Assembly (NCBI GenBank): GCA_030431455.1
Contig: JAUIJE010000002.1
Coordinates: 505,294-569,293 of the forward strand
Source of the DNA: a bacterium
GTDB taxonomy: Bacteria; Myxococcota; UBA727; JAUIJE01
Direction of reading: 5' to 3'
Length of the DNA: 64,000 bases
Every line of letters begins with the position of its first letter. The stretch's first letter is position 1. Below are positions 3,123 through 21,597 of the stretch, in pieces. The position numbers and the translations under genes are program-made. The notes beneath the pieces were generated by a model that ran no database searches, had not been told where the DNA came from, and worked only from the letters and a program-made list of their open reading frames with translations.

Positions 3123-4883
3123 CTAGGCGGCGTCGCGTTCGCCGGTCTGGAGCCGCCACAGGCCGGCGTAGCGACGGTTGAGCGCGAGCAGCTCATCGTG
3201 GGTGCCGCGTTCGCATATCTCGCCGTGCTCGAGCACACAGATGACGTGGGCGTGTCGAATGGTGGACAGGCGGTGGGCCACGATGAGGGTGGTCCGGTCT
3301 TGGGTGACCAAATCCAGCGAACGCTGGATCGCGCGCTCGGTCTCGTTGTCCACCGCGGAGGTGGCCTCGTCGAGGATCAGCACCGGGGGGTCTTTGAGCA
3401 GGGCGCGGGCCAGGGCGATGCGCTGGCGTTGCCCGCCGGACAGGAGCACGCCGCGCTCCCCCACCGGCGCGTCGTAGCCTTGGGGCAGCCGGGTGATGAA
3501 GTCGTGGGCGAAGGCGTCCTGGGCCGCGCGCACGATGTCCTCGCGCGACTTGTCGAACGAGCCGTAGGCGATGTTGTCCGCCACCGTTCCGTCGGTGAGA
3601 AAGACCTCTTGGCTCACATACCCGATGTGGCGTCGCAGGCTCTTGGCCGCGAGGGTGGTGAGGTCTTTGCCGTCGAGGCGGATGGTGCCCCGGGTGGGAT
3701 CGTACAGCCGGAGCAGCAAGCGCAGCAGCGACGACTTGCCCGAGCCGGTGGTGCCCACAAATGCCACCGTCTGGCCCGCGGGCACGGTGAGCGACACGTC
3801 GGACAGCGCGGTGGTGTCGCCGTAGTCGAGCCCGACGTGATCGAACACGATGTCCCCGGTGACCTGGTCCACGGTCTCGCCCCGGGTCTCGCGGTCGTCG
3901 TCCTTGGAGAGGTCGAGCAGGTCGAGGGCCCGGCGCGCCGAGGCCATCGAGCGCTGGTAGAGGTCGGTCATGTCCGCGAGCCGGGTGAAGGGCCAGAGCA
4001 GACGTTGGGTCAAAAACACCAACACCGAATACGCGCCCACCTCGAGGCTGCCGTCGAGGGTGAGGAAGCCGCCGTAGAGCAAGGTGCCGACAAAGCCCGC
4101 GAGCACGCCCATGCGGATGACGGGGGTGATGGCCGAGCTGACTTTGATCGCGCCGGTGTTGGCCTCTTGGTAGGCGAGGCTTTTGGCCTCGAGGCGGCGG
4201 TTTTCGTGTTCTTCGCCGACGAAGGCCCGGATGGTGGTGATGCCGCCGAGGTTGTTGGCGAGCAGCTCGTTGAGCTCGGCCGCGCGGCGCCGCACGGTGG
4301 CGTAATGCGGGGCGAGCCGGCGTTGGAACAAGAACGCGCCGAGGAGAATGATCGGCACCGGGAGGATGGCGACCACCGCGACCTGGGGGGTGAGCACAAA
4401 GAAGATCGCGCTCACCGCCACCGACGAGACCACCACTTGAATGAGGTCATTGGCCCCGCCGTTCAAGAAGCGCTCGAGTTGGTTGATGTCGTCGTTGAGC
4501 ACGGCCAGGGTCTGCCCGGTGCGTTGGTCCTGCAGCACCGAGAAGGGCAGGGTCTGGACGTGGGCATAGGTGTCGCGGCGCAGGCCGTGTTGAATGTCCT
4601 GGGCGATGTTTCGCCAGCGCACTTGGTAGAGGTACTCGAAGGTGCTCTCCATGATCCAGATCGCGGCGGTGATCGCCCCGAGCAAAAGCAATTGCATTTT
4701 GACATCGGTGACGAACTGCGCAAGCCACGAGCTCTCGCGCTTGACCACCGTGTCCACCAGCACCCCGATGATGACCTCGGGCAAGATGTCGAACACCTTG
4801 TTGGCCACCGAAAACACGGTGGCGATGATGATGCTCGCGCGCTTGTGCCGGGCGTAGACCCACAGACGTTGGAGAGGATGCAT
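3123..4883 (-). CDS. ABC exporter, fused membrane and ATPase domains (MsbA/MdlB-like)
   Basis: Protein of 586 residues, normal for a half-transporter that dimerises. Residues 1-310 form the six-helix ABC membrane domain. The ATPase domain carries Walker A GTTGSGKSS (about residue 374), the Q-loop YVSQEVF, signature LSGGQRQRIALARALL (about 479), Walker B VLILDEATSAVD (about 500) and switch histidine IVAHRLST. The family exports lipids, peptides or drugs across the inner membrane; the substrate cannot be read from the sequence. The ATG at 4883 leaves a basic cytoplasmic leader (MHPLQRLWVYARHKRAS). It sits between unrelated genes with no export partner, so it may be autonomous. Confidence 0.92.
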   Translation of the reverse strand: MHPLQRLWVYARHKRASIIIATVFSVANKVFDILPEVIIGVLVDTVVKRESSWLAQFVTDVKMQLLLLGAITAAIWIMESTFEYLYQVRWRNIAQDIQHGLRRDTYAHVQTLPFSVLQDQRTGQTLAVLNDDINQLERFLNGGANDLIQVVVSSVAVSAIFFVLTPQVAVVAILPVPIILLGAFLFQRRLAPHYATVRRRAAELNELLANNLGGITTIRAFVGEEHENRRLEAKSLAYQEANTGAIKVSSAITPVIRMGVLAGFVGTLLYGGFLTLDGSLEVGAYSVLVFLTQRLLWPFTRLADMTDLYQRSMASARRALDLLDLSKDDDRETRGETVDQVTGDIVFDHVGLDYGDTTALSDVSLTVPAGQTVAFVGTTGSGKSSLLRLLLRLYDPTRGTIRLDGKDLTTLAAKSLRRHIGYVSQEVFLTDGTVADNIAYGSFDKSREDIVRAAQDAFAHDFITRLPQGYDAPVGERGVLLSGGQRQRIALARALLKDPPVLILDEATSAVDNETERAIQRSLDLVTQDRTTLIVAHRLSTIRHAHVICVLEHGEICERGTHDELLALNRRYAGLWRLQTGERDAA

Positions 4884-4925
4884 GCCCCCCCGTACACAAC
4901 GTCGCGCCCGAGCGCGAGGGACGTC

Positions 4926-5345
4926 TCAGCCGAGGGGGGGCGAGCCGGCGGGCCACCGGTCGCCGGCCAGGCGCACGCCCTCGGCGAGGAACGCGAGGCC
5001 CTTGTCGACGCTGCTCACGGTGGTGAAGCGGCCGGGCATGGGGGTGAGCAAGAGGATCGAGGACAGGATCAGCCGGGGCAAGGCCTTGGTGATCACCATC
5101 GCGGTGCCGTACGACTCGGCCTCGATCCTGTCCCAATGTTGTTTGATCCACTCCGCTTGCATCTTGCGTTGAGTCGCGGGGGCGGACGCGGCCTGGTCGG
5201 CGTCGAGCACAAACCCGTAGCGCCGGGGCTCGTAGAGGAACACCTCCATCGCGTCGAGATAGGCCCGGAACTCGTCGTCGCTGCACTTGCCCCGCAGATA
5301 AAACACGATCAGCGGGTCCCAGCGGCGCTCGACAGTGAAAAACAT
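4926..5345 (-). CDS. conserved hypothetical, STAS/SpoIIAA-like small protein (copy 2)
   Basis: Protein of 139 residues starting MFFTVERRWDPLIVFYLRG. It is a paralogue of the gene directly upstream. Shared landmarks are a short alternating beta segment (LIVFYLRGKCSDDEFRAYLDAMEVFLYEP), a strand ending in an acid (YGFVLDAD), a long helix (RKMQAEWIKQHWDRIEAES) and a closing block (LILSSILLLTPMPGRFTTVSSV). The order beta-beta-helix-beta-helix recalls SpoIIAA/STAS-like domains of about 120 residues; this is an inference from pattern, not a confirmed match. Its ATG overlaps the upstream stop by one base (TGATG), so translation is probably coupled. Function unknown. Confidence 0.7.
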   Translation of the reverse strand: MFFTVERRWDPLIVFYLRGKCSDDEFRAYLDAMEVFLYEPRRYGFVLDADQAASAPATQRKMQAEWIKQHWDRIEAESYGTAMVITKALPRLILSSILLLTPMPGRFTTVSSVDKGLAFLAEGVRLAGDRWPAGSPPLG

Positions 5346-14483: not shown

Positions 14484-15992
14484 ATGGTGGGGGCGATGGT
14501 CGGCGGTGGCGTCGCCACCCTGTTGCATTGGGATTTTGTGTCGTTGCCCGGGTTGGCCGCGGGGGTGGCGATGGGCGTGCTCATCAACGGCATCCTCGTG
14601 TTCCGGTTGCGGTTTGACCGGGAGGTGGGGCCCGACGAGCTCGGCCTGCACGCGATGGTCGACCTCGGGGCGCTCACCTGGCTGTTGGCCTGGGCCGGTG
14701 GGCTCGAAAACCCGCTCAGCGTGGCCTACTCCTTTCACGTCATGCTCGGGGCTTTGCTCATCGGCCGCCAAGGGGGCCTGCGGGCCACGGTGGCCTCGGT
14801 CTTGTGTATGGCGTTGCTGTACGGCCTCGAGCGGTTCGGCTGGTTGCCCACCGATCCGCTCACCCAGCCGCCGCGCCTGCTGTGGGTGGCCAGCTTGGCC
14901 CTGTTGCTCCTCGGGGTCGGCTACTTCGCGTTGGTGCTGGCCTCCCGGTTGCGGGAGCAAGGGGTGATGGCCCGGCAGGAGCGCGAGCAGGCCGAGCGCA
15001 ACCTGCGCCTGCTCACCGACGCGTTGGACGCGCTTCAGGTCGGGCTCGAGGTGCGGGGGCACGACGGCCAAATGCAACTGCGCAATCCCTTTGCGGCGCG
15101 GCTCGCCACCAAGGTCGGGCCCGAGGACTGGGACCGCATCCAGTCCGGCGACGGCCACCTGGTGGTCAAGGGAGACGAGGGCACCGAACGGCTCATCGAT
15201 GTGCTCGCGGTCAAGCCCAGCGACGATGCCCGGGCCCGGTTGTACGTCGACCGCACCGAGGAGCGCATGGTCCAGCAGCGGCACTTCATGCTCGAGCGGC
15301 TGGCCACGTTGGGCCGGGCGTTGCAGGCCATCGCCCACGAGCTGAACACCCCCCTGACCACGATGCAGACCCTGGCCAAGGACATGAAAGCCGCCCTCGC
15401 CGACGCCCCCCTCGACGAGGCGGTGCGCGCGGATGTCGATGAGTCGGTGGACCTGATCATCGACGAGTCCCGCCGCTGCCGCACCTTGACCCAGTCGCTG
15501 CTGCAGACCGCGCACCAGCGGCCGGGCAAGATGACCGACGAGACCTTGCACCAGGTGATCGAAAAAGCGCTGCGCCTGGTGGGGCAAAAGCTCGACCCCG
15601 AGCGCCGGGACGTGGCCTTGGGGGTCGGCCTCGACGTGCGGCTCACGGTGGACGCCGACCGGGTGCTGCAGATCTTGATGAACCTCGTGCAAAACGCGCT
15701 CAAGGCGTGCGAGGACCTCCCCCGGGACCGCGCGCCGTATGTGCAGGTCTCCGCCGAGGCCCGGCCCGGCCGGTTGGTGGTGCGCATCAAGGACAATGGT
15801 CCTGGATTGCCCGACCGGGTGAAGGAGCATCTGTTCGAGCCGTTCGTGACCACCCGCGAAGACGGTGAGGGCACCGGGCTCGGCCTCTACACCAGCCACC
15901 GCATCGCCCATGAGCTGGGCGGGGGCCTGGAGCTGTTCTCGGAGCCGGGCCAAGGCACCGAGGCGGTGCTGAGCTTGCCCGGCCCGGGTTGA
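14484..15992 (+). CDS. membrane sensor histidine kinase
   Basis: At least 502 residues: about six N-terminal membrane helices (residues 1-165), a short PAS-like region, H-box AIAHELNTPLTTMQTLAKDM (His near residue 288), N-box LMNLVQNALKA, DNGPGLP, FVTTREDGEGTGLGLYTSHRIA. It autophosphorylates on His; no receiver or partner regulator is in the window. The start is doubtful. The frame upstream of 14484 remains open and reads RTRDYRDRLRWLSQLRWW, the usual beginning of this kinase type, yet has no ATG, GTG or TTG until it is deep in the preceding gene; CTG (14451, 14460) or ATC (14415) are the only candidates. Confidence 0.88.
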   Translation: MVGAMVGGGVATLLHWDFVSLPGLAAGVAMGVLINGILVFRLRFDREVGPDELGLHAMVDLGALTWLLAWAGGLENPLSVAYSFHVMLGALLIGRQGGLRATVASVLCMALLYGLERFGWLPTDPLTQPPRLLWVASLALLLLGVGYFALVLASRLREQGVMARQEREQAERNLRLLTDALDALQVGLEVRGHDGQMQLRNPFAARLATKVGPEDWDRIQSGDGHLVVKGDEGTERLIDVLAVKPSDDARARLYVDRTEERMVQQRHFMLERLATLGRALQAIAHELNTPLTTMQTLAKDMKAALADAPLDEAVRADVDESVDLIIDESRRCRTLTQSLLQTAHQRPGKMTDETLHQVIEKALRLVGQKLDPERRDVALGVGLDVRLTVDADRVLQILMNLVQNALKACEDLPRDRAPYVQVSAEARPGRLVVRIKDNGPGLPDRVKEHLFEPFVTTREDGEGTGLGLYTSHRIAHELGGGLELFSEPGQGTEAVLSLPGPG

Positions 15993-16124
15993 TCTGGTTC
16001 GTCCGCCCGGGCCCCGGCCCCCGTTCCGCCCCCGAGGCTGACCTGGGTCCGCCCCCCAAAGGGGGTGGACTTTTCCGCAGGGGAGGATATTAATCGATCG
16101 ACCAGTTATTTATGGGGAGAGGTC

Positions 16125-17537
16125 ATGGAACAGAGAATCCTTATTCTTTCTATGGGGTTGGCGCTGGGCGGCGCCTTCGCCGGCTGCTTGAACGTGCTGG
16201 ATGAGCCCGTCGCCCGCCCCGCCCCGGGGCCCGCGTCCAGCGCGGAGAGCGATGCCCCGCTGCCGATCAACCCGGAGCGGCCCGACCGCACGGTGTTGAT
16301 GGACAGCGCCACCTGCAGCGCCGGCTCCGCGGTCAACTGCGTGGGGGCCTGCACCCCCCTGGCCACCAAAAACCAGCAGCTGGGGGACGGCGCCTGCCAA
16401 AGCTGGTGGAACTGTGAGCAGTGGGATTGGGACAGCGGCGACTGTGAACCCCGCGATGGTTGCCCCGGCGGGCTCGAGAGCTGCGTGGGCAGCTGCATGT
16501 CCGCGAGCCAACCGGGCAACGGGGCCTGCAACTACTGGGCGAACTGCGCCGCGCACAACTACGACGGCGGGGACTGTCCGCTGATCGACACCGGCAACTG
16601 TGGCTACAACGAGCTGCAGGGCTGCACCGGCGGATGCGTGGCCCCTTCGTCCAAAGGCAACGGCTGGTGTGATGTCAGCTTGAACTGCCCGGAGAACGAC
16701 TGGGACGGCGGCGATTGTCTGGCCGACGACGACGCCGGCTGCGAAGACGGTTACATCGTCAACTGCAACGGCCAGTGCTCCAGCCCGGGCACCCAGGTGT
16801 GGCGGGGCAACGGCAACTGCCAAGCGATGTGGAACTGCGCGGAATACAACTGGGACGACGGCGACTGCGCGCCGCCGGGGGGTGATGACGACGACGACGA
16901 CGACGACGACGATGGACAGAGCACCTGTCTGTCCAGCCAAGTGTTGAACTGCTTTGGGGGCTGTACGTCTTCGTGGTGGCTCGATGACGGGTACTGCGAC
17001 AGCGCGCTCAACTGCGCGGCGCACAACTTCGACGACGGCGATTGCGGGGCCGGCGCCGATGACGCTGACGACGACGATGACGACGCGGGGTGCAGCGCGG
17101 GCTACATCCCCAACTGTTGGGGCACCTGCACCTTGGCCTCTTGGATCGACGACAACTACTGCGACAGCGCGCTCAACTGCGCGGCCACCGGCTACGACGG
17201 CGGCGACTGCGGCGGCAGCACCGCTGACGACGACGATGACGACGACGGGGTCCAGTGTGCGTCCTACCAAGTCGAAAACTGCCTCGGCGGGTGCACCTAC
17301 GCGTCGTGGGTGGGCGATCACTACTGTGACACCTCGCTGAACTGCGCGGCGCACAACTTCGACGACGGCGATTGCAGCGCGAGCACGCCCCCCGCGTCCC
17401 CGGGCAGCGGCTGCGACGCGGATGAGGTCGTCGACTGCGGCGGCCTGTGCAGTGACGCGGACTGGGTCGGCGACGGCACCTGCGACAGCTGGCTCAACTG
17501 CGCGGCCCACGACCAGGATGGCGGCGACTGCGGCTGA
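16125..17537 (+). CDS. lipoprotein with eight LNR (Lin-12/Notch)-like Cys repeats and poly-Asp spacers
   Basis: Protein of 470 residues. The start at 16125 follows GGAGAGG. A lipobox (AFAG-C, Cys 21) predicts a lipoprotein. From about residue 65 there are eight modules, each with six Cys and ending in a variant of NCAAHNFDDGDC or NCPENDWDGGDC. This is the pattern of Lin-12/Notch repeats, which bind calcium through the Asp/Asn cluster and hold three disulfides. Modules 4-5, 5-6 and 6-7 are separated by Asp runs (ten, six and seven Asp). No enzyme domain is attached, so an adhesive or calcium-dependent structural surface role is inferred. An intrinsic terminator follows. Confidence 0.85.
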   Translation: MEQRILILSMGLALGGAFAGCLNVLDEPVARPAPGPASSAESDAPLPINPERPDRTVLMDSATCSAGSAVNCVGACTPLATKNQQLGDGACQSWWNCEQWDWDSGDCEPRDGCPGGLESCVGSCMSASQPGNGACNYWANCAAHNYDGGDCPLIDTGNCGYNELQGCTGGCVAPSSKGNGWCDVSLNCPENDWDGGDCLADDDAGCEDGYIVNCNGQCSSPGTQVWRGNGNCQAMWNCAEYNWDDGDCAPPGGDDDDDDDDDDGQSTCLSSQVLNCFGGCTSSWWLDDGYCDSALNCAAHNFDDGDCGAGADDADDDDDDAGCSAGYIPNCWGTCTLASWIDDNYCDSALNCAATGYDGGDCGGSTADDDDDDDGVQCASYQVENCLGGCTYASWVGDHYCDTSLNCAAHNFDDGDCSASTPPASPGSGCDADEVVDCGGLCSDADWVGDGTCDSWLNCAAHDQDGGDCG

Positions 17538-17561
17538 CCGGTCCGGTTGCGTACGGTCCAC

Positions 17562-17597
17562 AAAGAGCCCCGCGGCGCGTCTCGCGGGGCTTTTCTT
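17562..17597 (+). terminator. intrinsic terminator after the LNR lipoprotein gene
   Basis: Perfect nine-base stem AGCCCCGCG/CGCGGGGCT with an eight-base loop, followed by TTTTCTT. It begins 25 bases after the stop codon. Confidence 0.85.
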
Positions 17598-17861
17598 GAG
17601 GCTCCGCATGCCACTGTATGGTGTCGGCGCGACGGGCACGGACGCTCCGCGCCACCCTAGCCGCCGGGCTTGGCCCCGGCACCTGAAAGCAGTTCTGAAA
17701 CCGGTCTGACGGGGCCAAAGGTCCCCTACGGCGGCGACGGCCGGGCGGCGGTCGACGACACGGACCCGCGATGCCGGCTCGGTCGGATGGCGGACCGAGG
17801 CGAAAAAAGTGCGTGTTACGACTTCTTTGCTCTTCCCCGCCAACCGGAAAGAGAACGGAAC
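17598..17861. other. intergenic region before the amidase gene
   Basis: About 260 bases between the terminator at 17597 and the amidase start. I see no convincing open frame or strong promoter pair. The last 60 bases are less GC-rich and end in AAAGAGAACGGAAC just before the ATG, the likely ribosome-binding site. Confidence 0.5.
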
Positions 17862-19778
17862 ATGCAGGAACATAGGAAACGGACCGTCGCCCTTTTGGCC
17901 GGCGCCACCACCCTCTGGGTGGGCGGCTGCGCGATGTCACTTCACGAACCGACCCCGGCTGGGGATCGCAACCAGGAGCGGACCGATACCCAGCAGACCA
18001 TCGCCGCGGAGTACGACACCGAGGACGGCTTTCGCATCTCGCCCGAGGTGACCTCCGCATCCGGCGGCACCCGCGTGGGGTTCATGATCGACCTCGACGC
18101 CGGCGCCCCCGGGGACGCGACCCTCGCCCTCGAGGCCCGCGGGGTGGCCGAGGACGGCACCGCCGGGACCTGGGTCCCGGCCGCGGTGACCTTTGCCGAA
18201 CACCCCTACCGGGTGGCGGTGGCCGACCTCCCGGAATGGGCCGCGTCGGTGCAGGTGCGCCTCCCGGACGAAGACCTCGCGGTGGTGGACAGCCTGACCT
18301 TCGAAGCGATCGTGCCCGCGGACGACGGCAACGGGACCCTCGACCTCGACGAGCAGGCCGACGCCGAACAGGGATTGTCCGCCGCCTTGGCCGACCTCGG
18401 GGTCAACGCCCGCGCGGCCTGGGGGGCGCGTCCCTCAAAGTGCACCGGCGGAGACAGCGCCAAGTACCGCATGGCCGTGCACCACACCGTGACCGGCACG
18501 ACCCTCAACGGGAGCTATCCTGCCAGATTGCGCCAAATCCAGGCCTACCACATGGACGCGCGCAACTGGTGCGACGTGGGCTACCACTTCCTGATCACCG
18601 CCGACGGGCGGGCGTGGGAGGCGCGCCCCGTCCACCGGCGGGGGGCCCACGTGGGGCTGCAAAACTCCGGCAACATCGGGGTCAGCTTCGTCGGCTGCTT
18701 TGACGGCTCGTGCGGGGGCAACAGCCAGCCCACCACCGCGATGATCGACCGGGGCGCGTCCCTCATCGCTGGGCTCGGCCAAATCTACGGCATCGGCATG
18801 AACCAGGTGCGCGGGCACCGGGACCACGCCGGGGCCCAGACCGCGTGCCCGGGCAGCAACCTGTACGCACGGCTCGGCGACCTCAAGTCCGGCACCCCGG
18901 CCCCGGGGGGCGGGGGCGGCCTCAACGCGGACATCGTGGTGGTCAAGCGCACCGGGACGGGGAGTGACATGACCGAGGCCCATGTGCTCTCCCGCGCGGA
19001 TGGCTATGCATCATTTTCCACCCAGGTGGGCACCGCGCTGCACAAGACCGGCGGGGCCGCCTGGCAGTTCGGCGCGGGGGACTACGACGGCGATGGCGTA
19101 CGCGACCTGTTCGCCATCAACCGCGCCGGCGGCTCGGGCCAGACCGAGGTCCACGTGCTCGAAGGAGCGGACGGGTTTCAGAGCTTTTTGACCCATTCCG
19201 CCACCGCGTTGCACCCCACCGACAACGACAACTGGACGATGCTGGTCGGAGACCACGACGGCGACGGCCGGGACGACGTCATCGCGGTCAACCGCGCGGG
19301 GGGCACGGACAAGACCGAGGTTCATGTGCTGCGGGCCGCGGACAACTTCCAATCGTTCTCGCTGCACAAAGCCACGCCGCTGCACGTGACCAACACCCCG
19401 AACTGGTCGTTCGTGGCCGGTGACGTCGACGCTGATGGCCGGGCCGACGTGTACGCGATCAACCGCCACGGGGGCTCGGACCAAACCGAGGTCCACGTGC
19501 TCGGGGGCGCCAGCGGATACAACGACTTTGTGATGCACGCCGCGTCCGACCTGCACCCCACCGACGCGGGGGAGGAGCACTACAGCTTCACCGCCGCCGA
19601 CGCCAACGGCGACGGCCGCGACGACGTGGTCCTGATCAAACGCGCCGGGGGCAGTGGCCAGACCGAGGTCCACGTGCTCAACGCCGCGGACAGCTTCGCC
19701 ACGGTTGTGTTGCACGCGGCCACCGCCCTCGGGGCCACCACCGCGAACAATGCCTATACATTCGTGTCCGGGAGTTGA
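17862..19778 (+). CDS. lipoprotein with PGRP/N-acetylmuramoyl-L-alanine amidase domain and FG-GAP repeats
   Basis: Protein of 638 residues with a lipoprotein signal (LLAGATTLWVGG-C). Residues about 30-175 form a beta-rich domain of unknown type. Residues about 180-340 are an amidase_2/PGRP domain: MAVHHTV, a Tyr in GYHFLITADGRAWEARP, NSGNIGVSFVGCF, and HRDHAGAQTACPGSNLY, giving the usual His-Tyr-His-Cys zinc set that cleaves the muramic-acid to L-Ala bond. After a short Gly linker, residues 356-638 contain five FG-GAP/VCBS repeats with DxDGDGxxD calcium loops (DYDGDGVRDLFAINRAGG and similar). PGRP plus FG-GAP suggests a surface hydrolase that binds cell walls, its own or those of prey. Terminator downstream. 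Confidence 0.9.
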   Translation: MQEHRKRTVALLAGATTLWVGGCAMSLHEPTPAGDRNQERTDTQQTIAAEYDTEDGFRISPEVTSASGGTRVGFMIDLDAGAPGDATLALEARGVAEDGTAGTWVPAAVTFAEHPYRVAVADLPEWAASVQVRLPDEDLAVVDSLTFEAIVPADDGNGTLDLDEQADAEQGLSAALADLGVNARAAWGARPSKCTGGDSAKYRMAVHHTVTGTTLNGSYPARLRQIQAYHMDARNWCDVGYHFLITADGRAWEARPVHRRGAHVGLQNSGNIGVSFVGCFDGSCGGNSQPTTAMIDRGASLIAGLGQIYGIGMNQVRGHRDHAGAQTACPGSNLYARLGDLKSGTPAPGGGGGLNADIVVVKRTGTGSDMTEAHVLSRADGYASFSTQVGTALHKTGGAAWQFGAGDYDGDGVRDLFAINRAGGSGQTEVHVLEGADGFQSFLTHSATALHPTDNDNWTMLVGDHDGDGRDDVIAVNRAGGTDKTEVHVLRAADNFQSFSLHKATPLHVTNTPNWSFVAGDVDADGRADVYAINRHGGSDQTEVHVLGGASGYNDFVMHAASDLHPTDAGEEHYSFTAADANGDGRDDVVLIKRAGGSGQTEVHVLNAADSFATVVLHAATALGATTANNAYTFVSGS

Positions 19779-19845: not shown

Positions 19846-20073
19846 CTACCGCGCGCGGCGACGCGGCGCCGGGGGCGGGACCGCTTCGAGCGCGGTCACC
19901 GCCGGGGCCGGCGGGGTCGACAAGGCGGGGGCGTTGGCCGCGCGGCGGGCGGCCGCGGGCTCGGTGGGGGCGCGCCGGCCCTCCACCGGGAGCTCGATGA
20001 CCGGGGCGTGGGGGGCCACCGGCACGTCGTCGGTGAGCACAAACAGATGAATCGAACCCAACATCGGGATCAT
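19846..20073 (-). CDS. small Pro/Ala/Arg-rich protein coupled to the VanY-like gene
   Basis: Open frame of 75 residues beginning MIPMLGSIHLFVLTDDVPV, then Pro/Ala-rich and ending PRRRAR. Its ATG overlaps the stop of the peptidase gene in the ATGA arrangement, the usual sign of translational coupling. No signal peptide, domain or family is recognised. The composition is biased enough that it could be a chance frame. The overlap and position are the only support. Confidence 0.4.
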   Translation of the reverse strand: MIPMLGSIHLFVLTDDVPVAPHAPVIELPVEGRRAPTEPAAARRAANAPALSTPPAPAVTALEAVPPPAPRRRAR

Positions 20074-21494
20074 GCCCGCTCTCCTCTTTTTCGCCGCCGC
20101 ACCGCCCCCAACAGCAACACGTACAGCCCCGCCAGCGAGGGCGAGACCGCGGCACAGCCGTCGTCATCGTCGCTCACCGTGATCGTGATCGGCCCTTCGC
20201 CGTCTCCGTCTCCGTCTCCATCCCCATCCCCATCCCCACCGCCTGAAGAACCGGAGTCGGCGGCTCCGCCGTCCGACGGTTCTTCCAAGCCGCCGTCAGG
20301 CGGCCAGTCGCCGTCTCCATCTCCGTCGCCGTCTCCATCCCCGTCGCCGTCTCCATCCCCGTCGCCGGTCTCGCCGGTGCACGCGTCGTCGGCGCACCCG
20401 GCGGCGCAGGCGGTGACCTCGAGCTGGCCTTGGCGGCAGCGCGACAGGTGGTCGTCGTCGACACACCCGAACACGACGTTCTCTTGGCCTTCACACTCTT
20501 CGACCACGCAGTGGGGCGTGCCCCCCTCAGCCGAGCAACTCATGTCGAACGCGGCGCAGTTGCCGGTCTCGACCTGGCCCTCGGTGCAGGTGTACATCGT
20601 GTCGCCGTCGCAGCCCGCGGCCCACTCGTCGTCGACGCAGGCAAAATCCACGCAGTGGGCCTCGCCGCCTTGATCGCTGCACACCCCCGGACACGCCGAG
20701 ACATTGACCACGCCGCCGTCACACACCGCGAGGCTGCTTTGGTCGGCACAGTAGCGGGCGAAGGGGTTGTCGAGACAGATCTGGTTCGCGCAGTGCGCCC
20801 CGCCCTCGTCGGAGCAGGTGCCGCCCACCGCGGTGCAGTCGTCGCTGACCAGTTGTCCGTTGGCATCGCAGTGAACGTACGCGTCGCCGCTGCACGACCC
20901 ATAGTTGGGGTCGGCGGCACACTCGGGGGCCTGCCCGCAGGGCCCGCCGCCCGGGCCGCCCCCCCACCATTCCCAGTGCCAGTTTTCGCTTGGCACGGTT
21001 CGTTCAAAGCCGAACTCGTCGCCGTGGTTGTTCAGCCAGTTGAGCACGCCGGCGGACGAGGTGTTGAGGTCGAGGGCGTGGCCGCTTTGGTGGTTGGAGT
21101 ATCCCGGGGTGGCGGCGAGGTTGCAGTTGTTGCAGTTGCAGTTGATGTAGCAGTTGTAGAGGTACTGTTGCTGCGCCTGGGTGCGAAACCCCGACACGAT
21201 CCAGATGTCCACGCCGGCGGCGGCGGCGGCCTCCTTCATGACCCAGTAGGCGTTGGCGGTCTCGACCTCGACGGGTTTGCCATCGGCTTGCACCACGGTG
21301 ATGGTGAAGGGGTTGCCGGAGACGTAGCCGGTGTCGGTGGTCTCGGTGCAGTCGATGATCGCCTCTTCGAGCTCGGGCACCACGAAGTCCCACGGCTCGG
21401 GGCATTCTTGGTCGGCGACGGGGATGAGCTCGTCGCCACAAGCGGACAACAGGCCCAGCGACAGCAAGCCCACGGCGGCGGATGTGCGGTGCAT
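20070..21494 (-). CDS. lipoprotein VanY-like D,D-carboxypeptidase (M15B) with Cys-rich repeats, Gly-Asp linker and MYXO-CTERM-like tail
   Basis: Protein of 474 residues from the ATG at 21494. The signal peptide ends LLSA-C. Residues 45-175 are an M15B peptidase domain with SGFRT, the zinc pair in NHQSGHALDL (near 135) and WHWEWW (near 173). Such enzymes trim D-Ala from peptidoglycan stems. The domain has an unusual Asn/Cys insert (CYINCNCNNCN) before the first zinc ligand. Residues 180-385 hold repeated Cys-rich units of about 45 residues. A Gly-Asp linker follows, and the end reads DDDDGCAAVSP, a hydrophobic stretch and RRRKRGERA, resembling the MYXO-CTERM sorting signal. A protein with both a lipobox and such a tail is odd. 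Confidence 0.85.
   Translation of the reverse strand: MHRTSAAVGLLSLGLLSACGDELIPVADQECPEPWDFVVPELEEAIIDCTETTDTGYVSGNPFTITVVQADGKPVEVETANAYWVMKEAAAAAGVDIWIVSGFRTQAQQQYLYNCYINCNCNNCNLAATPGYSNHQSGHALDLNTSSAGVLNWLNNHGDEFGFERTVPSENWHWEWWGGGPGGGPCGQAPECAADPNYGSCSGDAYVHCDANGQLVSDDCTAVGGTCSDEGGAHCANQICLDNPFARYCADQSSLAVCDGGVVNVSACPGVCSDQGGEAHCVDFACVDDEWAAGCDGDTMYTCTEGQVETGNCAAFDMSCSAEGGTPHCVVEECEGQENVVFGCVDDDHLSRCRQGQLEVTACAAGCADDACTGETGDGDGDGDGDGDGDGDGDGDWPPDGGLEEPSDGGAADSGSSGGGDGDGDGDGDGDGEGPITITVSDDDDGCAAVSPSLAGLYVLLLGAVRRRKRGERA
20190..20376 (-). repeat. Gly-Asp coding repeat blocks in the VanY-like gene
   Basis: Two stretches of the degenerate hexamer GGNGAY (seen here as its complement TCNCCR) encode GDGDGD linkers, one at about 20195-20240 and one at about 20306-20372, separated by a Pro/Glu/Ser region. 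Such hexamer arrays can change length by slippage without frameshift. Confidence 0.85.
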
Positions 21495-21597
21495 GTGACC
21501 TCCTGCAAAGTGCCTCTGCCCGACCCAGCAGACCGTACAAAGCATGCCGCAGCCGAGGGCAAAAACGTCCTGAGGAAACCTGTGAGGTGTCTTTTTC

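Follow-up and report, generated by a model that had tools for sequence, protein, structure and literature searches.

An array of eight cysteine-rich modules related by sequence to Lin-12/Notch repeats on a putative lipoprotein of a Myxococcota bacterium

Lin-12/Notch repeats (LNRs) are usually described as animal modules, as in Notch and pappalysin, and their canonical disulfides are C1-C5, C2-C4, and C3-C6. LDL-receptor class A (LDLR-A) modules, treated as a separate family, have the disulfide order I-III, II-V, and IV-VI, and arrays of them bind basic partners multivalently in animals. Apart from pappalysins, LNRs have been stated to be confined to Notch receptors, and a 1-3/2-4 disulfide order was reported for LNR1 and LNR3 of PAPP-A (PMC9579167). 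In the copepod Oithona nana, secreted LNR-only proteins have arrays of as many as 13 LNR-like domains, two cysteines being lost in many of these, and other LNR-like domains are fused to trypsin; these are animal proteins without a lipid anchor, and the passages that describe them report no cysteine shift (PMC8301441). Notch-like motifs of bacteria are mentioned in general terms (PMC7649014). A literature search for a paper on bacterial modules with the shifted cysteine described here found none, and the variant fits no described Pfam or NCBIfam family.

The window (the whole 64,000-nucleotide stretch analysed) carries on its forward strand an ORF at 16125-17537 that starts with ATG and codes for 470 aa. 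Its G+C content at the three codon positions is 60/56/88% and resembles that of the neighbouring genes, while an antisense ORF at 16110-17873 (587 aa) has 84/57/63% and was ruled out, so the coding on the plus strand is considered real. The upstream neighbour is a histidine kinase gene (14484-15992). Downstream are a gene at 17862-19778, the product of which combines a lipobox, an N-acetylmuramoyl-L-alanine amidase domain (Amidase_2), and C-terminal FG-GAP repeats, and then a gene for a VanY-type protein. The array gene looks monocistronic. The hairpin on its 3' side is missing from the list of the consensus terminator scan. No functional tie between the array and the neighbouring genes was found, and no conserved neighbour points to a partner. 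The features are as follows (module borders according to the Cys pattern, other protein features according to sequence).

16046..16075, +, terminator-like hairpin between the histidine kinase gene and the array gene (z = -2.0)
16114..16122, +, Shine-Dalgarno-like GGGGAGAGG, just 5' of the ATG
16125..17537, +, gene of the 470-aa putative lipoprotein with eight Cys-rich modules (ORF and sequence)
16125..16187, +, putative signal peptide MEQRILILSMGLALGGAFAG, followed by Cys21 (FAGC, Leu at +2) as putative lipid acceptor
16314..16445, +, module 1 (aa 64-107)
16461..16577, +, module 2 (aa 113-151), Pfam Notch 12.6 bits
16599..16718, +, module 3 (aa 159-198), Pfam Notch 14 bits
16740..16868, +, module 4 (aa 206-248), Pfam Notch 7.1 bits
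16869..16925, +, spacer APPGG-D10-GQST
16926..17045, +, module 5 (aa 268-307), AlphaFold2 pLDDT 87
17046..17090, +, acidic spacer GAGADDADDDDDDAG
17091..17210, +, module 6 (aa 323-362), Pfam Notch 15 bits
17211..17255, +, acidic spacer GGSTADDDDDDDGVQ
17256..17375, +, module 7 (aa 378-417), tandem AlphaFold2 model
17412..17531, +, module 8 (aa 430-469), tandem AlphaFold2 model
17563..17599, +, terminator-like hairpin with T-rich tail, 3' of the array gene (z = -3.4)

A sequence-only reading of this DNA had proposed a lipoprotein of eight six-cysteine Notch/LNR-like modules with (D/G)GDC-type ends, runs of up to ten Asp between them, and no enzyme domain. The module count is confirmed: the 49 cysteines are Cys21 and eight times six module cysteines, with none left over. 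The modules have the fixed spacing C0-x6/7-C1-x3-C2-x10..14-C3-x5-C4'-x9-C6, all eight end in D-x-G-D-C, and the six-Cys pattern occurs eight times in the protein and not once in 2000 shuffles of it. The absence of an enzyme domain from the 470-aa protein was borne out as well; scans of the whole protein gave no domain in Pfam and NCBIfam at E<=10 and no match in PHROGs. The lipid anchor remains putative. A putative signal peptide with a lipobox-like Cys21 is present, but FAGC at aa 18-21 has an unusual Phe at -3 compared with the lipobox [LVI][ASTVI][GAS]C and is not textbook; Phe at -3 is found also in the nearest relative, L033 (FVAC). Asp runs reach the proposed ten residues, but in the middle of the array only, with ten Asp before module 5, DDADDDDDD before module 6, and seven before module 7. 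No long Asp run occurs in the linkers of modules 1-4 and 8, and the poly-Asp spacers are thus limited to the positions 4-5, 5-6, and 6-7.

Modules 5, 6, and 7 repeat with a period of exactly 165 nt at about 67-74% DNA identity and therefore represent old tandem duplications. Across the array, DNA identity between modules has fallen to about 60-75%, with the Cys framework and the calcium-site positions kept. The mature chain has 86 D/E and 7 K/R residues and a net charge of about -79. The genome has Asp runs of at least eight residues at nine sites and many Gly-Asp repeat linkers, so it habitually uses acidic low-complexity linkers.

Six of the eight single modules match Pfam Notch (PF00066, Lin-12/Notch repeat), with 7-15 bits (15.0 at best), all below the curated cut-off of 21.2 bits. 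The nearest relative, L033, exceeds this cut-off with 24.0 bits and matches the Notch1 NRR with E 4e-4. When a profile of the eight modules was compared with PDB sequences, GNPTAB was first (E 0.011), followed by pappalysins and Notch1/2, and no LDLR-A was among the matches. With an HMM built from 15 bacterial LNRs of related genomes and five animal LNRs, seven modules outscored all 250 shuffles with fixed cysteines, and module 4 was beaten by nine of them. In HHalign, the module profile reached 96.9% with bacterial LNR, 94.8% with animal LNR, and 0.5% with LDLR-A, the last represented by seven human repeats; the LDLR-A and some of the Notch sequences were entered by hand. LDLR-A as parent by sequence was rejected on that 0.5% and on scores at shuffle background, and the module-by-module Pfam search gave no Ldl_recept_a match. 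Matches of single modules to DUF5332 and defensin were rejected too, as they were below the cut-off and concerned one or two modules only. The comparisons support the modules as sequence relatives of LNRs, and the expected LNR match above background holds. By sequence they are LNR-derived modules, not LNRs in the strict sense.

From C3 to C6, which lies 16 residues on, the modules align without gaps with canonical LNRs; the closest known LNRs are those of GNPTAB and pappalysin and the four-Cys bacterial ones. Asn at +5, Asp at +12, Gly at +14, and Asp at +15 from C3 are kept in this register, and the calcium signature DGxCD...DxGDC and the lead-in W-x-G-D-G-x-C are common to both. The difference is in the cysteines. 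In canonical LNRs, cysteines stand at +9 and, where present, at +4 from C3; the present modules have neither and carry one at +6. Compared with LNR, Cys4 is missing, Cys5 stands three residues earlier (C4'), and an extra C0 is added N-terminally. The bond C2-C4 is impossible because there is no Cys4, and the canonical set of LNR disulfides cannot be formed, which the sequence-only reading had itself named as a ground for refutation. The Notch/LNR likeness thus stood in its sequence kinship and calcium signature, but not in the canonical Cys positions.

The relatives suggest how the cysteines pair. Four-Cys modules without both C0 and C2 are present in L033, which has six modules, and in Bacteroidota-type proteins on the contigs L059-L065. 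Both cysteines occur in nine proteins and neither in three lineages, with one exception (L037); the Fisher p is 0.014 by protein, with few independent lineages. The automatic table was checked by eye; in L019, L058, and L048 both cysteines are at longer spacing or had been misassigned, and the upstream Cys of L065 is the end of a preceding DGSC repeat, not C0. Since C0 and C2 are lost together, they would pair with each other, leaving C1-C4' and C3-C6. The co-loss points to C0-C2, and the other two pairs would follow from it. C1-C4' and C3-C6 would have the same 1-3/2-4 order as PAPP-A LNR1 and LNR3, and the three pairs together would give the LDLR-A order.

Structure prediction, proposed along with the LNR assignment, covered one single module and one tandem of two. 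Module 5, with its seven siblings as alignment, was modelled by AlphaFold2 with pLDDT 87 and a short N-terminal hairpin. LDLR-A-type chains were 49 of the best 50 Foldseek matches of this model in PDB, with a lowest E of 0.29 and TM values of about 0.4-0.5, and no LNR was among these 50. The tandem of modules 7 and 8 showed the same hairpins and a linker with pLDDT below 50; its best match was VLDLR repeats (E 0.0037, probability 0.91, low TM), with Notch NRRs and PAPP-A ranking lower. A search of BFVD structures gave no match. The neighbours are thus LDLR-A ahead of LNR, although the matches are weak, and a predicted shape closer to LDLR-A than to LNR is a lead. Likeness to LDLR-A includes the six cysteines, the spacings C4-x5-C5 and C5-x9-C6 (cysteines numbered in order), the proposed pairing order, an acidic, probably calcium-binding loop, the tandem arrays, and, in the models, the N-terminal hairpin and the Foldseek neighbours. 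LDLR-A differs in having no sequence-profile similarity to the modules, a C3-C4 spacing of about 6 (10-14 in the modules), and an SDE motif where the modules have the LNR-type end DGGDC.

All eight modules and nearly all relatives keep the LNR calcium-ligand positions, with [DN] at -3 from C3 and Asp at -4 and -1 from C6, so by their sequence the modules are probably calcium-binding. The preferred reading, with a probability of about 0.55, is that of an envelope protein with a lipid anchor, composed of eight LNR-derived disulfide modules in a row, each stabilised by calcium. Its architecture, the LNR kinship, the loss of the canonical cysteines, and the C0/C2 coupling are directly supported. 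Once exported, the protein would be anchored in the outer membrane through the lipid on Cys21. Each module would bind one Ca2+ through the retained ligand positions and be held by C0-C2, C1-C4', and C3-C6, and flexible acidic linkers would let the modules behave like beads on a thread. Their calcium-loaded and strongly acidic faces would most likely bind a basic partner, a protein or a surface, multivalently, and the Asp runs would add charge and reach. The calcium-cross-linked adhesive or spacer role suggested earlier is possible.

It is less probable, but a serious competitor, that the protein is a plain LNR array that retains the fold and the calcium site of Notch LNRs, with two conserved disulfides in the PAPP-A-like 1-3/2-4 order and a peripheral C0-C2; the LDLR-A likeness would be an artefact that arises when small Cys-rich chains are modelled and matched. 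All sequence statistics favour LNR and none LDLR-A, and LNR structures are present in the Foldseek list of the tandem model. PAPP-A LNRs keep the LNR shape with two disulfides or one, but have short helical turns only (PMC9579167), against the N-terminal beta hairpin predicted here. The LDLR-A share of the best Foldseek matches also disagrees with a plain LNR array, and the displacement of C4' by three residues from LNR C5 requires another disulfide frame.

The net charge, the Asp runs, and the common Gly-Asp linkers would suit a passive acidic stalk or calcium sponge that has no specific partner and only keeps charge, water, or Ca2+ close to the outer membrane. Such a role is improbable, as the Cys framework and calcium positions are conserved despite the divergence of the DNA, and single modules on a trypsin and on a peptidyl-arginine-deiminase-like enzyme suggest a specific accessory role. 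That the modules are held by disulfides only, without calcium and with incidental acidic residues, is very improbable; the low LNR-profile score of module 4 would agree with this, but the [DN]/Asp ligand positions argue against it by their presence throughout the array and in nearly all relatives.

Returning to the string of calcium-stabilised modules, a further and less probable step is that they bridge two animal calcium modules, being LNR by descent and LDLR-A by disulfide order and fold, with one Cys moved by three residues and one disulfide partner swapped. The shifted-Cys family as such indicates that the LNR disulfide frame can be rewired with the calcium site kept, and it makes the relation between LNR and LDLR-A testable with small, refoldable peptides.

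The genome has no second protein like the eight-module array, and the shifted-Cys family in the wider sense has matches in 5 of 195 genomes of the phylum. L033 (JASMKV010000205.1, Myxococcota MAG Arabian9_MAG_24) is a lipoprotein with a C-terminal tandem of shifted-Cys modules and 38% identity, but its modules have four cysteines (no C0 and C2), its N-terminal region is different, and it has no poly-Asp spacers. Most of the relatives are lipoproteins or are secreted. Lipoproteins, a T9SS protein, a trypsin, and a peptidyl-arginine-deiminase-like enzyme are among the carriers, with modules in tandem or, as on the two enzymes, in single copy, and this variety suggests an accessory surface module. 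The array protein had no match in phages, plasmids, or, by protein search, viral contigs. IMG/VR contigs found by DNA pattern encode Bacteroidota-type proteins, and a T9SS Por_Secre_tail is present in one of them; these contigs may be cellular, and a viral origin is therefore not claimed. With shifted-Cys LNRs in Myxococcota and Bacteroidota-type sequences, the LNR module is more widespread than usually described.

Canonical-type LNRs were also observed. In the same genome, the lipoprotein-like L002 (G000:C27:53689-56775) has a four-Cys canonical-type LNR above the Pfam cut-off, adjoining Gly-Asp repeat linkers. A metagenomic contig (L075, complement of 4074-5315) has a six-Cys canonical LNR beside a third Cys variant (CPDGYVRDCVDDDCCPDFWIGDGYEDCEDQIYGCDLTCYDNDGGDC). 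In G043, a Myxococcota genome, 20 Pfam Notch matches are distributed over several proteins (loci L019, L025, L027, L066, and L073), a case of LNR expansion in a bacterium.

A near-identical cassette of about 70 nt, GACTGGCCGCCTGACGGCGGCTTGGAAGAACCGTCGGACGGCGGAGCCGCCGACTCCGGTTCTTCAGGC, coding for DWPPDGGLEEPSDGGAADSGSSG, was found in the window at about 20238-20305 on the minus strand, inside the VanY-type ORF 20070-21545, and also in L002 and L076-L087; its 41-nt core is at 15 places in the genome. The 13 copies read are all in one frame and inside Gly-Asp repeat linkers of ORFs, several of them lipoproteins. The other 194 genomes of the phylum gave weak partial matches only. The cassette is conserved at silent sites, contains a near-perfect palindrome, and looks like an in-frame dispersed palindromic coding element, for which Rickettsia palindromic elements are the comparison case, or a linker homogenised by gene conversion.
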